Shown here: positions 30,476 through 37,267 of the stretch, in pieces | How positions within the stretch are numbered: position 1 is the first letter of the stretch | How the letters are laid out: the number at the start of each line of letters is the position of its first letter | Source of the DNA: Lewinella sp. IMCC34183 | Lineage (GTDB): Bacteria > Bacteroidota > Bacteroidia > Chitinophagales > Saprospiraceae | Direction: 5' to 3' | Length of the DNA: 64,000 nucleotides | NCBI RefSeq assembly: GCF_003390915.1 | Contig: NZ_QMEM01000003.1 | Coordinates: 310,001-374,000 of the forward strand | Translations under genes and position numbers: made by a program | Notes under the pieces: model-generated | Databases searched by the model: none | The model's input: the letters and a program-made list of their open reading frames with translations, nothing else | What the model was told of the DNA's origin: nothing

Positions 30476-31858
30476 ATGACGACCCGACAGTACATCGACG
30501 AGAACCGCGACCGCTTCCTGGAAGAGCTCAAGCGCCTGATCCGTATCCCTAGCATCAGCACCGCCACGGAACACGACCAGGATACCCACCGCTGCGCCGT
30601 GCAGGTGCAGGAGTACCTGGTACGCGCCGGCCTCGACAAGGCGGAACTCTACCCCACCGACGGCCACCCCATCGTGTACGCGGAGAAGATCCTGGACGAA
30701 AGCCTTCCGACCGTACTGATCTACGGCCACTACGACGTGCAACCCGCCGACCCGCTCGACGAGTGGGACACGCCCCCCTTCGAGCCGACCGTCAAGAAGA
30801 CCGCCCACCACCCGGAGGGGGCCATCTTCGCCCGCGGCGCCACCGACGACAAGGGGCAGATGTTCATCCACGTCAAGGCCGTGGAGACGATGATCCAGAC
30901 CGACAGCCTGCCGTGTAACGTCAAGTTCATGATCGAGGGCGAGGAAGAGATCGGCAGCCCCAACCTGGTGCCCTTCATCTCGGAGTACAAGGAGATGCTT
31001 TCCTCGGACGTCATCCTCATCTCGGATACCAGCATGCTGAGCAAGGATGCCCCCAGCATCACGGTGGGCCTGCGGGGACTGACTTACCTCGACGTGAAGG
31101 TGCGCAGCGCGCGGGCCGATATGCACTCCGGCCTCTTCGGTGGCGCGGTGGCCAACCCCATCAACGTGCTCTGCGAGATGATCGCGAGCCTGAAGGACGA
31201 CGATAAGCACATCACCATCCCCGGCTTCTACGACGACGTGGAGTTCCCGAGCGAGCGGGACCGGCAGCTGATGCGCGACGCTCCCTTCGACGCGCAGGAG
31301 TACATGGACAGCCCGGGCGTCTTCGGATTGGAAGGAGAAAAGGGATATACCACCTACGAGCGCACCGGCATCCTGCCTACTCTGGACGTGAACGGCATCT
31401 GGGGCGGCTTTACGGGCGAGGGCTCCAAGACCGTGATTCCGGCCGTAGCCAACGCCAAGATCAGCATGCGGCTGGTCTCCAATCAGGATTATAAAAAGAT
31501 CACGAAGCTCTTCACCGACCACTTCACATCCATCGCGCCGGACAGCGTGAAGGTAGAAGTGAAGCCTCACCACGGCGGGCAGCCCTACGTCACCCCCACC
31601 GATACGCCCGAATACCGTGCCGCGGCCGATGCCGTGAAGGAGGCCTTCGGCAAGGAGCCGGTGCCGATGTACGAGGGGGGCTCGATCCCCATCGTGCGGC
31701 AGTTCAAGGACGTGCTGGGCGTGGATACCATTCTGATGGGCTTCGGCTTTGATACGGATGGGCTGCATTCACCGAATGAGCACTTCGGGCTGTGGAATTT
31801 CTATAAGGGAATCGAGACGGTACCGGAGTTTTTTAAGGCCTATGCTGGTCGGAAGTAG
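30476..31858 (+). CDS. M20-family dipeptidase
   Basis: 460 residues of the M20 metallopeptidase family (dipeptidase/CNDP-like). Visible metal-site blocks are YGHYDVQP (His and Asp ligands), ARGATDDKGQ (bridging Asp), IEGEEEIGS (catalytic Glu-Glu), SDTS and the late HSPNEHF (His ligand). A dimerisation domain occupies roughly 190-350. It hydrolyses small peptides with two zinc ions, probably in the cytoplasm because no signal peptide is seen. Its 3' end borders directly on the tandem-repeat block beginning at 31868. Confidence 0.93.
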   Translation: MTTRQYIDENRDRFLEELKRLIRIPSISTATEHDQDTHRCAVQVQEYLVRAGLDKAELYPTDGHPIVYAEKILDESLPTVLIYGHYDVQPADPLDEWDTPPFEPTVKKTAHHPEGAIFARGATDDKGQMFIHVKAVETMIQTDSLPCNVKFMIEGEEEIGSPNLVPFISEYKEMLSSDVILISDTSMLSKDAPSITVGLRGLTYLDVKVRSARADMHSGLFGGAVANPINVLCEMIASLKDDDKHITIPGFYDDVEFPSERDRQLMRDAPFDAQEYMDSPGVFGLEGEKGYTTYERTGILPTLDVNGIWGGFTGEGSKTVIPAVANAKISMRLVSNQDYKKITKLFTDHFTSIAPDSVKVEVKPHHGGQPYVTPTDTPEYRAAADAVKEAFGKEPVPMYEGGSIPIVRQFKDVLGVDTILMGFGFDTDGLHSPNEHFGLWNFYKGIETVPEFFKAYAGRK

Positions 31859-31867
31859 GGAGGGTTT

Positions 31868-32238
31868 GTCGCGCTGCGCGCTCCGGGGTTTCATACAGAT
31901 TCGCACGGATAGTCTACAGATTACCGCAGATTGGGAATATGTGCGTGACGCGGGAGTGCAGAGATGCTTTATCCGGTAATTGGATAGGAGGTGTCGGCGT
32001 GTCGGACGGGAAAGGTTTTTGTCGCGCTGCGCGCTCCGGGGTTTCACACAGATTCGCACGGATAGTCCACAGATTACCGCAGATTGGGAATATGTGCGTG
32101 ACGCGGGAGTGCAGAGATGCTTTATCCGGTAATTGGATGGGAGGTGTCGGCGTGTCGGATGGGAAAGGCTTTTGTCGCGCTGCGCGCTCCGGGGTTTCAC
32201 ACAGATTCGCACGGATAGTCCACAGAATACCGCAGATT
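31868..32238. repeat. 153-bp tandem repeats upstream of the GxxExxY gene (two full copies plus a partial third)
   Basis: Copies start at 31868, 32021 and 32174, exactly 153 bp apart. The first two differ at about five positions; the third stops matching near 32238. Each unit carries a GC-rich element (GTCGCGCTGCGCGCTCCGGG), a CACAGATT...CACAGATT segment and an AT-richer remainder. Because 153 is a multiple of three, the repeats keep several frames open on both strands, but these look non-coding. The CACAGATT segment matches, in inverted orientation, the units downstream of the gene. Immediately after the array, 32260-32276 forms a 7-bp hairpin. Confidence 0.95.
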
Positions 32239-32332
32239 TTCTTTGGGTTGTCCGGATTCGGATCGCTGCGCGATCCGGGAGGGTGCCGGTTAAAAGACCG
32301 ATCATTTAACGCCAGTCCACGTATGGTAGACT

Positions 32333-32353
32333 GCGGCAAAGGAATTTTGCCGC
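32333..32353 (+). promoter_or_regulatory. hairpin abutting the start codon of the GxxExxY gene
   Basis: GCGGCAAA (32333-32340) and TTTGCCGC (32346-32353) form a perfect 8-bp stem with loop GGAAT; the stem ends at the base before the ATG, and T32332 can pair with its A. In RNA this would bury the initiation region, including the only purine-rich tract (AAAGGAA). A second, overlapping stem (CAGTC at 32313-32317 with GACTG at 32329-32333) could compete with it. A translational switch is an inference. Confidence 0.6.
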
Positions 32354-32725
32354 ATGGAATTGAACGACATCACCTACGCCATTATCGGAGCCTCCTACAA
32401 GGTACACGCCGCGTTGGGTCCCGGCCTTCTGGAAAGTGTTTACGAGACGTGCTTACTGCATGAATGCCGTGAGGAAGGGTTGAAGGCCAAAACCCAGGTG
32501 GAGGTACCGGTCGTCTACAACGGCCTGATCATGCCGGTCGCTTACCGGATGGATTTGCTGGTAGAGGAGAAGGTGGTCGTGGAAATAAAGTCGGTCGAGT
32601 CACTCCGGCCGCTGCACCAGGCGCAGGTACTGACCTACCTACGCACGGCCCAGCTGCCGGTGGGCCTGCTCATCAACTTCAACACCACTAACCTAAGGGA
32701 GGGCATCAAGCGCTTCCGCAGATAA
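32354..32725 (+). CDS. GxxExxY-family protein (PD-(D/E)XK superfamily)
   Basis: 123 residues. The family motif is G24-x-x-E27-x-x-Y30 (in ALGPGLLESVYE). A PD-(D/E)XK nuclease-like core follows: D67 in YRMDLLV, then E77-x-K79 in VVVEIKS, then Q91 in a helix (HQAQVLTYL). The family is widespread, often in many copies per genome, and its function is not established; a nuclease activity is inferred from the conserved D...ExK. The gene is tightly framed: a hairpin touches its start codon, and a repeat unit begins at its stop codon (TAAATCCGTG). Repeat families surround it on both sides. Confidence 0.9.
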   Translation: MELNDITYAIIGASYKVHAALGPGLLESVYETCLLHECREEGLKAKTQVEVPVVYNGLIMPVAYRMDLLVEEKVVVEIKSVESLRPLHQAQVLTYLRTAQLPVGLLINFNTTNLREGIKRFRR

Positions 32726-33152
32726 ATCCGTGAAAATCTGTGGACTATCCGCGTAAATCTGTGAGAAACTTCCAGTTTGCGAAGCAAACTCCTATGTCTC
32801 CAGGTGTCTCGGGTAAGGCCAAGAAACATCCTTCCAAATCGGTGAGAACCATCCGGTTTGCGAAGCAAACGCCTATACTCCCCACACATCAGGTAATCCC
32901 AAGGATAGTCTGTGAAAATCTGTGGACTATCCACGCAAATCTGTGAGAAACATCCGGTTTGCGAAGCAAACGCCTATACTCCACACACATCAGGTAATTC
33001 CAAGGATAGTCTGTGAAAATCTGTGGACTATCCGCGTAAATCTGTGAGAAACTTTCAGTTTGCGAAGCAAACGCCTATGCTCCACACACATCAGGTAATC
33101 CCAAGAAACATCCTTCCGAATCGGTGAGAACCATCCAGTTTGCGAAGCAAAC
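32724..33152. repeat. 80/101-bp interspersed repeats with GTTTGCGAAGCAAAC hairpins
   Basis: The 15-bp palindrome GTTTGCGAAGCAAAC occurs five times, starting at 32775, 32856, 32957, 33058 and 33138 (spacings 81, 101, 101 and 80 bp). The long units contain AATCTGTGGACTATCCGCG-type sequence, the inverse complement of the CACAGATT segment upstream of the gene. The short units replace it with AAGAAACATCCTTCC followed by a RATCGGTGAGAACC stretch. After the palindrome comes a common tail (GCCTATRCTCCAC, then CACATCAGGTAAT). The intervals are near copies of one another, so this is not a CRISPR array. No gene lies between 32726 and 33211. Confidence 0.95.
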
Positions 33153-33211
33153 GCCCAATCAAGGGAACGGAAGCTTCCTCACCCTACCACTCAACCCGGA
33201 GGGATTAGACC

Positions 33212-33721
33212 TTACCGGCGCACCCCACCCTCATCGATATACTGCTTACGCACCAGCTCATCCACCGTAGGCTCCCGCACGTTCAGCACGGCGCCGGAGA
33301 AGAAGAGCGTCTTGCCCGCCAGCGCATGATTCGCGTCCAGCGAGACTAACTCGTCGTTCCAGTCTAGGACCTTGGCATTTACGTCCTTGCCGCTGGAGTC
33401 GGTCAGGGTAATGTACTGCCCCTTTTCCAGCAATCCCGGCTCGATCTGCTCCCGCTCGTTCTTAAAAATGTGGATCGGGGCCTGCAGGATATGCGCCTCG
33501 TCGCGGTGGCCGTAGGCATCGTCAGGACCGAGCTGAAAGCTGAAGCCCATCCCGCTCTTCAGCCCGAACAGCCGCCGTTCCCAGGCGGGCAGCATACGGC
33601 CGGTGCCGAACATGAAGATGAAGGGGTAGTTGACGTCCATGCGCTCGAGCAGGGTGCCCGACGGACCGCCGTCGCGGACCTCGTAGGTGAGGGTTACTAT
33701 GCTGTTGTCGTCAATGGTCAT
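33212..33721 (-). CDS. FKBP-type peptidyl-prolyl isomerase, SlyD-like
   Basis: 169 residues. An FKBP core begins at residue 1 (SIVTLTYEVRDG) and contains FGTGRMLPAWERRLFGLKSGM. It is interrupted, as in SlyD, by an insert-in-flap domain (about 70-135, DAYGHRDEA to LDANHALAGKTLFF). Such enzymes catalyse prolyl isomerisation and act as folding helpers. No signal peptide and no His-rich metal-binding tail are seen, so it is probably cytoplasmic. It diverges from the S41 peptidase gene and its 3' end faces the repeat block. Confidence 0.9.
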   Translation of the reverse strand: MTIDDNSIVTLTYEVRDGGPSGTLLERMDVNYPFIFMFGTGRMLPAWERRLFGLKSGMGFSFQLGPDDAYGHRDEAHILQAPIHIFKNEREQIEPGLLEKGQYITLTDSSGKDVNAKVLDWNDELVSLDANHALAGKTLFFSGAVLNVREPTVDELVRKQYIDEGGVRR

Positions 33722-37161: not shown

Positions 37162-37254
37162 CGCGCTCGGAGAGCGCGTCGGACCGCGCTGCCGGAGGCA
37201 GCATTGTACTATCGCTGCCGGAGGCAGCATTTTACTGTCGCTGCCGGAGGCAGC
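37162..37254. repeat. four consecutive hairpins with GGA loops
   Basis: CGCGCTC-GGA-GAGCGCG (37162-37178) is followed by three copies of GCTGCC-GGA-GGCAGC at 37188-37202, 37214-37228 and 37240-37254, with a period of 26 bp. All four have the form C(GGA)G at the loop. They fill the gap between the convergent S41 peptidase and TonB-type receptor genes, ending 14 bp before the latter's stop. They may work as bidirectional transcript ends, although no T tract follows. Confidence 0.9.
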
Positions 37255-37267
37255 GTTGTACTGCGTC

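Follow-up and report, generated by a model that had tools for sequence, protein, structure and literature searches.

To our knowledge, dispersed palindromes linked to a gene are known so far only from RAYT proteins, which are of the HuH/Y1 type. I-Ssp6803I is a homing endonuclease of the PD-(D/E)XK type, and Cas4 is recognised by an iron-sulphur (Fe-S) cluster held by four cysteines. In this study, we analysed a window of 64,000 nucleotides from Lewinella sp. IMCC34183 (the whole stretch presented above, to which all coordinates refer), in which a gene of the GxxExxY family lies between arrays of short words in inverted relation. We propose that GxxExxY genes and their inverted word arrays probably form one compact chromosomal mobile unit, similar to the RAYT/REP system (as outlined in parts of PMC8266576, used here for comparison) but built on a predicted PD-(D/E)XK nuclease. 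It has the appearance of a self-spreading element of a kind not yet described, although this novelty is provisional and refers to the open literature, subscription journals lying outside the scope. In the open literature, no title-relevant paper was found for the word strings, for PDDEXK_3 together with repeats, for palindromic repeats of Flavobacterium or for S23 arrays, and the parts of PMC8934634, PMC12085832 and PMC9756366 that concern GxxExxY treat no repeats. In the following, G labels stand for genomes (G000 is the source genome, the others were compared with it) and L labels for fetched loci.

GxxExxY genes are linked to inverted repeats far beyond the window. Framing was measured with an inverted-repeat score of our own (7-mer seed, +1/-2, ungapped), whose threshold of 14 was set after the data had been seen. 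A total of 129 distinct full-length copies was compiled and four were dropped for short flanks; in 88 of the 125 copies with at least 200 bp on both sides the flanks were joined by an inverted repeat scoring at least 14, compared with 25 of 482 other open reading frames (ORFs) of the 80 named loci and 105 of 1240 pairings of flanks across loci. When at least 60 bp of non-coding DNA was required on both sides, 30/40 GxxExxY copies were framed against 22/224 controls. Both 88/125 and 30/40 are inflated by a single orthologous Flavobacterium hem site, which accounts for 22 of the 80 named loci, all of them framed. Without these loci, 66/103 copies remained framed, and 9/19 against 8/133 controls under the non-coding requirement; without any locus labelled Flavobacterium or Flavobacteriaceae the count was 53/84. 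A second set of 36 copies, two of which were dropped for short flanks, gave 17 framed among 34 copies from 16 genomes reached via records of other groups. Framed copies occur in records titled Bacteroidota groups, Verrucomicrobia, Planctomycetota, Proteobacteria, Desulfobacteria, Thermoflexales and Myxococcota, many of them metagenome bins in which single taxon placements may be contaminated. Several of the framed control ORFs resemble IS200-like or RAYT-type genes or their neighbours, and three match PF01797; the framing test thus recovers the known system of this kind.

The arms of these mirror-image frames consist of a repeated word of 7-9 nt, separated by variable spacers of mostly 1-3 nt. 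Words found are CACAGATT or CACGGATT (window), CACAGAG, CGCAAAG, CACCAAG, CATTAAG, CCATATAAG and others. Between the left and right arms of 54 framed loci, 53 of 1039 word positions and 103 of 302 spacer positions were mismatched, in a purely descriptive comparison for which regular expressions served to find the words of the left arm. The nine copies of one Verrucomicrobiaceae genome use five or more different words, and both arms of each copy agree. Each gene lineage has its own word, and the word tracks the protein tree as well as protein similarity across phyla. On the protein tree, which has few columns and many open forks, the word class changes 23 times, while shuffled means were 67.6 (120 rows) and 59.8 (99 rows, hem locus counted once); for the 81 rows without Flavobacterium the shuffled mean was 45.2, with a minimum of 39 in 200 shuffles. 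Cross-phylum protein pairs with the same word are 44.6% identical (n=385), compared with 40.6% (n=2461) otherwise, and none of 500 within-phylum permutations reached this difference; for this test and for the tree, word classes were hand-made regular expressions, and 45 of 165 copies that remained unclassed were left out.

In the window the octamer AATCYGTG occurs only 3' of the gene and its complement only 5' (in the octamer scan, position 7 was allowed to be T or C). Among 32 loci of relatives, including those of the own genome, none had the octamer on the wrong side within 1.5 kb, and ten had it on both sides. Around the 80 loci from named genomes its density was 0.57 per kb within 1 kb of the gene and 0.16 per kb farther out. 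A GxxExxY gene was found in 33 of 40 genomes (the own genome included) and a strict two-octamer pattern in 16 of the 40; the reversed control gave one match. Six genomes had only one or two strict matches (G003, G008, G011, G022, G031 and G034). Among the matches listed, a GxxExxY gene is 206 bp away from those of G022 and 25 bp away from those of G031, those of G003 and G011 lie outside the gene loci read, and that of G008 is not included; G034 has the pattern without a GxxExxY gene.

The source genome contains three GxxExxY genes, one of them broken, and 49 matches to AATCYGTGN{0,14}AATCYGTG in about 16 clusters, with none for the reversed control. Parts of the window arms, 35-49 nt long, are also present at further array sites of this genome with 87-93% identity. 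By eye, arrays of CGCAGAG-like and CACAGAGG-like words flank the other two GxxExxY genes on either side, with weak inverted-repeat scores: the broken copy reaches 11, and the second reaches 15 with a best pair that is not its word array. Two places in this genome, L042 (G000:C5) and L053 (G000:C52), have a non-coding tandem repeat of about 490 bp in common that includes word arrays, with 77% identity over 760 bp. Contigs of this assembly end inside word arrays at L043, L044, L048 and L051; the arrays seem to break the assembly, and the array count may be too low.

Copies without the gene are found as well. The CATTAAG pattern was present in all 11 searched genomes in which the GxxExxY gene carries this word and in none of 12 others, and never in reverse, where some matches are the gene's own arms and genus is a confounder; with this proviso, dispersed palindromes of cognate sequence are linked to the gene, as in RAYT systems. 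All 16 pairs of opposite-strand CATTAAG neighbours within 200 bp were arranged plus-then-minus, i.e., as palindromes. Twenty gene-less CATTAAG places were fetched; they are mostly intergenic and keep long arms, and no GxxExxY-like ORF appeared in their ORF listing, which was read without a profile check. Two palindromes fold as long hairpins, one with a z-score of -9.6 and the other, the solo palindrome of G009, with -8.1. At the hemA-hemC locus of Flavobacterium, a complete palindrome often makes up each flank of the gene. The GxxExxY gene of this locus is a long-term resident under strong purifying selection, with a ratio of nonsynonymous to synonymous substitutions (dN/dS) of 0.034 over 120 pairs, compared with 0.027 for hemC and 0.098 for hemD. 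About 3 kb from the hem-locus unit, an IS200-like (RAYT-type) gene with palindromes of its own was seen at L103:11314-11862 (PF01797 checked for L103) and again in L105, L109, L113 and L119, so that both kinds of system stand side by side in some Flavobacterium.

The original prediction had called for a comparison of empty and filled sites, and filled, gene-less and empty sites all exist among related genomes. The two genes that flank the window gene, for an M20 peptidase and an FKBP-type peptidyl-prolyl isomerase (PPIase), enclose site A; both flanks were readable in 10 of 15 same-genus PPIase loci, own locus included. This site is empty in G012 and G004, where the gap between aligned coding ends is 7 and 44 bp. 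Where G000, G001 and G007 have gene-bearing arms, G009 carries a solo palindrome of about 90 bp with the same word family as the window, and the genes of G007 and G001 are oriented opposite to that of the window. An S23 gene (PF05635, E-value 4e-11) with other arms occupies the site in G013, and the more distant G002, G005 and G015 have another ORF there. Site B holds GxxExxY genes in ten genomes (one broken) that are 50-71% identical, with flanks reaching 98%; between G010 and G002 the gene is 64% identical and the flanking proteins 96 and 98%, and the CACAGAG word is replaced by one of the CACAGATT type. Orientation relative to the flank also differs at site B in G009 and at site C in G018, but not at site D. 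At an intergenic rhodanese/sulphur-transport site, 9 of 16 readable Flavobacterium genomes have a CATTAAG palindrome and seven have inverted arrays of other words (4 of 20 were unreadable); the words seen there (L325-L340) are CATTAAG, GTTCTAAG, GTTCAAAG/ACAGAG, CACAGATT and CCATATAAG. These comparisons indicate that the sites persist but that their occupants change. With nothing, a gene-less palindrome, or a different GxxExxY lineage, word and orientation at one and the same site, units have apparently been gained, lost or exchanged at fixed sites. Vertical inheritance with inversion was considered for site A and rejected, since the window protein resembles the G001 and G007 copies (55% identity, flanks 86-87%) no more than it does others. 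A preference for convergent gene pairs, suggested by sites A and B, was likewise discarded: among 52 loci (hem locus counted once) 7 were convergent, 41 co-directional and 4 divergent, against 45 convergent of 368 in the background (p = 0.82).

The features of the window locus are collected in the table.

Features of the GxxExxY locus in the window
Feature	Position	Strand	Remarks
GxxExxY / PDDEXK_3 gene, 123 aa	32354..32725	+	E27, D67, E77-x-K79, Q91xxxY95; PD-(D/E)XK core, predicted Cas4/RecB type
Left array	31865..32238	+	2.4 tandem copies of a 153-bp unit; three arms GTTTCAYACAGATTCGCACGGATAGTCYACAGATT pointing inward in CACRGATT orientation, the third slightly diverged
Left arm, copy 2	32041..32085	+	82% complementary over 45 nt to 32725-32769
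Hairpin ending at first base of start codon	32332..32354	+	-13.6 kcal/mol, z-score -4.0
First right arm	32725..32769	+	AATCYGTG orientation; overlaps last base of stop codon
Right array	32727..33159	+	five 70-nt units, spacing 81/101/101/80 bp, each with hairpin GTTTGCGAAGCAAAC
First of five downstream hairpins around GTTTGCGAAGCAAAC	32774..32790	+	
M20 peptidase, left neighbour	30476..31858	+	flank of empty/filled site, outside element
FKBP-type PPIase, right neighbour, convergent	33212..33721	-	flank of empty/filled site, outside element

The original prediction had described tandem copies upstream and 80/101-bp units downstream of the gene, in inverted relation, with one repeat beginning at the stop codon and a hairpin ending at the start codon. 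All of these elements were recovered: both sets of repeats have coordinates, the arms are complementary and the octamers point in opposite directions on the two sides, and the first downstream octamer and the upstream hairpin touch the stop and start codons. The start-codon hairpin possibly serves translational control. In the right array, three units have the full word arm and two are only 64-69% identical to the first unit; a 101-bp array lies inside this region (32835-33105). Compared with shuffles, the downstream GTTTGCGAAGCAAAC hairpin had a z-score of -2.7, and the upstream CGCGCTGCGCG hairpin was not better (z-score +1.3). A known RNA was dismissed as an explanation, as only a tRNA reached the gathering score in the window. 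Elsewhere in the window (37187-37263), just past the end of a 1086-aa ORF, a 26-bp unit with a short palindrome inside occurs in three tandem copies.

The nuclease-like core with D67 and E77-x-K79 that had been proposed for the 123-residue protein is borne out by profile matches and by residue conservation. The protein scored 147 bits with TIGR04256 GxxExxY (cut-off 35) in a profile search and 147.3 bits with PF13366 PDDEXK_3 (E-value 3e-43, cut-off 22) in Pfam. In an alignment of 53 sequences E27 is invariant, and D67, E77, K79 and Q91 are conserved at 90% or more. The predicted model has a pLDDT (predicted local distance difference test) of 96.1, and Cas4, Hjc and LHK-Exo are among the top matches. 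The conserved E/D/ExK on the modelled alpha-beta core places the protein in the PD-(D/E)XK superfamily, with Cas4/RecB-type motifs and predicted fold. Pfam gave PDDEXK_3 and a sub-threshold Cas4 match only, with no HuH/Y1 transposase domain, and S23 (PF05635) had no match at E-values up to 1.

The proposed mobile unit accommodates the linkage, the mirror-image frames, the co-variation of word and protein, the gene-less copies, the change of occupants and the purifying selection, all of which are observed. The framing linkage together with filled, gene-less and empty sites supports the earlier suggestion of a mobile or self-spreading unit comparable to RAYT/REP. In such a unit the nuclease would recognise its own word, probably in a folded hairpin or in DNA broken nearby, and might cut or trim word DNA; repair or strand transfer could then copy the palindrome, with or without the gene, to a new site or swap the resident unit. 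If the address is a palindrome, this would account for finding the gene in either orientation at one site. Both a RAYT-like mobiliser and a homing nuclease with a palindrome as its address fit, and the latter is slightly favoured because orientation differs between genomes at sites A, B and C. That phages or plasmids usually carry the unit was rejected, given its near-absence from such records: GxxExxY was found in none of 50,697 phage records (E-value up to 1e-5), in 7 of 72,556 plasmid records (E-value up to 1e-8) and at one confirmed locus in viral contigs. A bolder view, which we regard as possible but doubtful, is that of a class of selfish elements built around a minimal nuclease of Cas4/RecB type. 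The nuclease would home to palindromes of its own word, and these would serve it as ends, as addresses and as non-coding offspring. An insert at the dyad centre could have either orientation, joint change of word and protein would give new lineages that are blind to each other and replace one another at shared chromosomal sites, and S23 genes would represent a second, independent occupant of this lifestyle.

A number of observations weigh against the mobile unit. Below the threshold were 37/125 and 17/34 copies, i.e., 54/159 lack inverted arms; therefore the frame is either dispensable or subject to decay. Reversed frames occur in a few cases (L262, L146), and within 1 kb of the 80 genes the octamers number 31 + 41 on the expected sides and 8 + 8 on the other sides. 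Only the window gene, among the three of its genome, has the octamer nearby. AATCYGTG arrays are many in G010 (18 matches) and G012 (24), where the GxxExxY copies examined are nearly devoid of the octamer, and G017 and G034 have three and two pattern matches and no GxxExxY match. Word and genus are confounded in the CATTAAG scan, in which all 11 positives are Flavobacterium and the 12 others are not. In the genus of the window, gene-less arrays are often one-sided tandem arms, with only 7 R-F and 3 F-R junctions within 150 bp at 34 loci. One copy has stayed between hemA and hemC in 22 Flavobacteriaceae genomes, which means little movement. At site A no target duplication was recognised by eye between empty G012 and solo G009, genomes too diverged for a sharp test. 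S23 genes are framed by inverted arrays of another kind, and array formation may not need a GxxExxY enzyme. Finally, we infer, rather than observe, that the protein contacts and acts on the repeats and moves the unit. The original prediction had named two findings that would speak against it. Repeats scattered without link to GxxExxY genes are found in part, as the repeats are scattered in the genome, but they are linked to these genes and framing is enriched relative to other ORFs. Relatives without any flanking repeats are also found in part: repeats are often kept, with other words, and the unframed copies counted above stand beside them.

Rather unlikely, in our view, is that unrelated host machinery (foldback synthesis, slippage, recombination) makes these arrays like REPs or terminators, with GxxExxY genes as mere passengers in places that tolerate insertion. 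Such an origin would be consistent with the palindromes of differing words at the one rhodanese site, with the framing of the unrelated S23 family in 15/30 loci, with the many gene-less arrays and with the arrays that have no matching gene in G010, G012, G017 and G034. It leaves unexplained that word and protein lineage go together across phyla, and the conservation of words between arms while spacers drift is not predicted by passive foldback; the pattern beside a GxxExxY gene in two of the six few-match genomes (G022, G031) also speaks against it, a point offset by G034, G003 and G011.

Autoregulation is a reading of the arms as operators or RNA structures of the GxxExxY gene, with solo arrays as relics of decayed genes. 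The exchange and inversion of units at fixed sites are not explained by it, nor do the complete palindromes on both sides of the hem-locus gene and the long arms kept at the 20 solo places fit well, and it seems improbable even though the arms lie directly outside the gene, a strong hairpin covers the window start codon and broken and partial gene copies occur. Slightly less credit can be given to GxxExxY as a Cas4/RecB-like enzyme of nucleic-acid defence or repair whose arrays are decoys or recognition sites that it does not spread. The Cas4-like fold and motifs, the purifying selection and PADLOC matches among the relatives (Cas4 in 32/53, best 1e-5; the defence candidate PDC-M36A in 6/53, best 2.5e-6) agree with this very improbable role, whereas the best PADLOC match of the window protein has an E-value of 0.003, and empty, solo and filled sites and replacement are left unexplained. 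Chance, or a by-product of intergenic low complexity, is practically negligible: short words do repeat easily in AT- or GC-rich spacers and 8/133 non-coding-flanked control ORFs are framed, but framing is far commoner in GxxExxY genes, and the reversed patterns matched 0, 1 and 0 times (own genome, 40 genomes, CATTAAG scan).

If the mobile unit holds, it would add a second enzyme superfamily for gene-linked dispersed palindromes. A widespread family known by its motif name (TIGR04256) would gain a testable role and intergenic palindromes a candidate maker, and the co-variation of protein and word across phyla would amount to a natural specificity code for a nuclease of about 120 residues. Compared with the Cas4/RecB/lambda-exonuclease group of PD-(D/E)XK proteins, the window protein is a single minimal domain with only two cysteines (C33 and C38) and thus has no Cas4-type four-cysteine cluster, and its gene has an M20 peptidase and a PPIase as immediate neighbours. 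S23/IVP (PF05635) elements likewise have a gene for a small protein between inverted arrays of short words, and one of these elements occupies site A in G013, but the protein family is unrelated and the words are largely without spacers in the alignments. Among S23 loci of relatives (L164-L193, e.g., L184, L189 and L178) the framed half, at a score of at least 14, has telomere-like words of 7-8 nt (GGTCTTT, TAGGTTT, GATTGGA, CGATGGT) that differ between genomes. With homing endonucleases the unit has in common a small nuclease-type gene whose site in relatives lacks the gene or is wholly empty, and apparent replacement at fixed addresses; it differs in that GxxExxY was not seen in an intron or intein, that its own palindromic arms are also dispersed and that target cleavage is putative. 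From RAYT (TnpA_REP) proteins with REP, REPIN or BIME repeats (REPtrons) it differs in its enzyme, which is PD-(D/E)XK and not HuH/Y1, in arms that are word arrays with variable spacers, in several words per genome and in whole units that appear to be swapped at fixed sites. What both have in common is one chromosomal enzyme gene that is flanked by and linked to dispersed non-coding palindromes, and an enzyme and a repeat that vary together.
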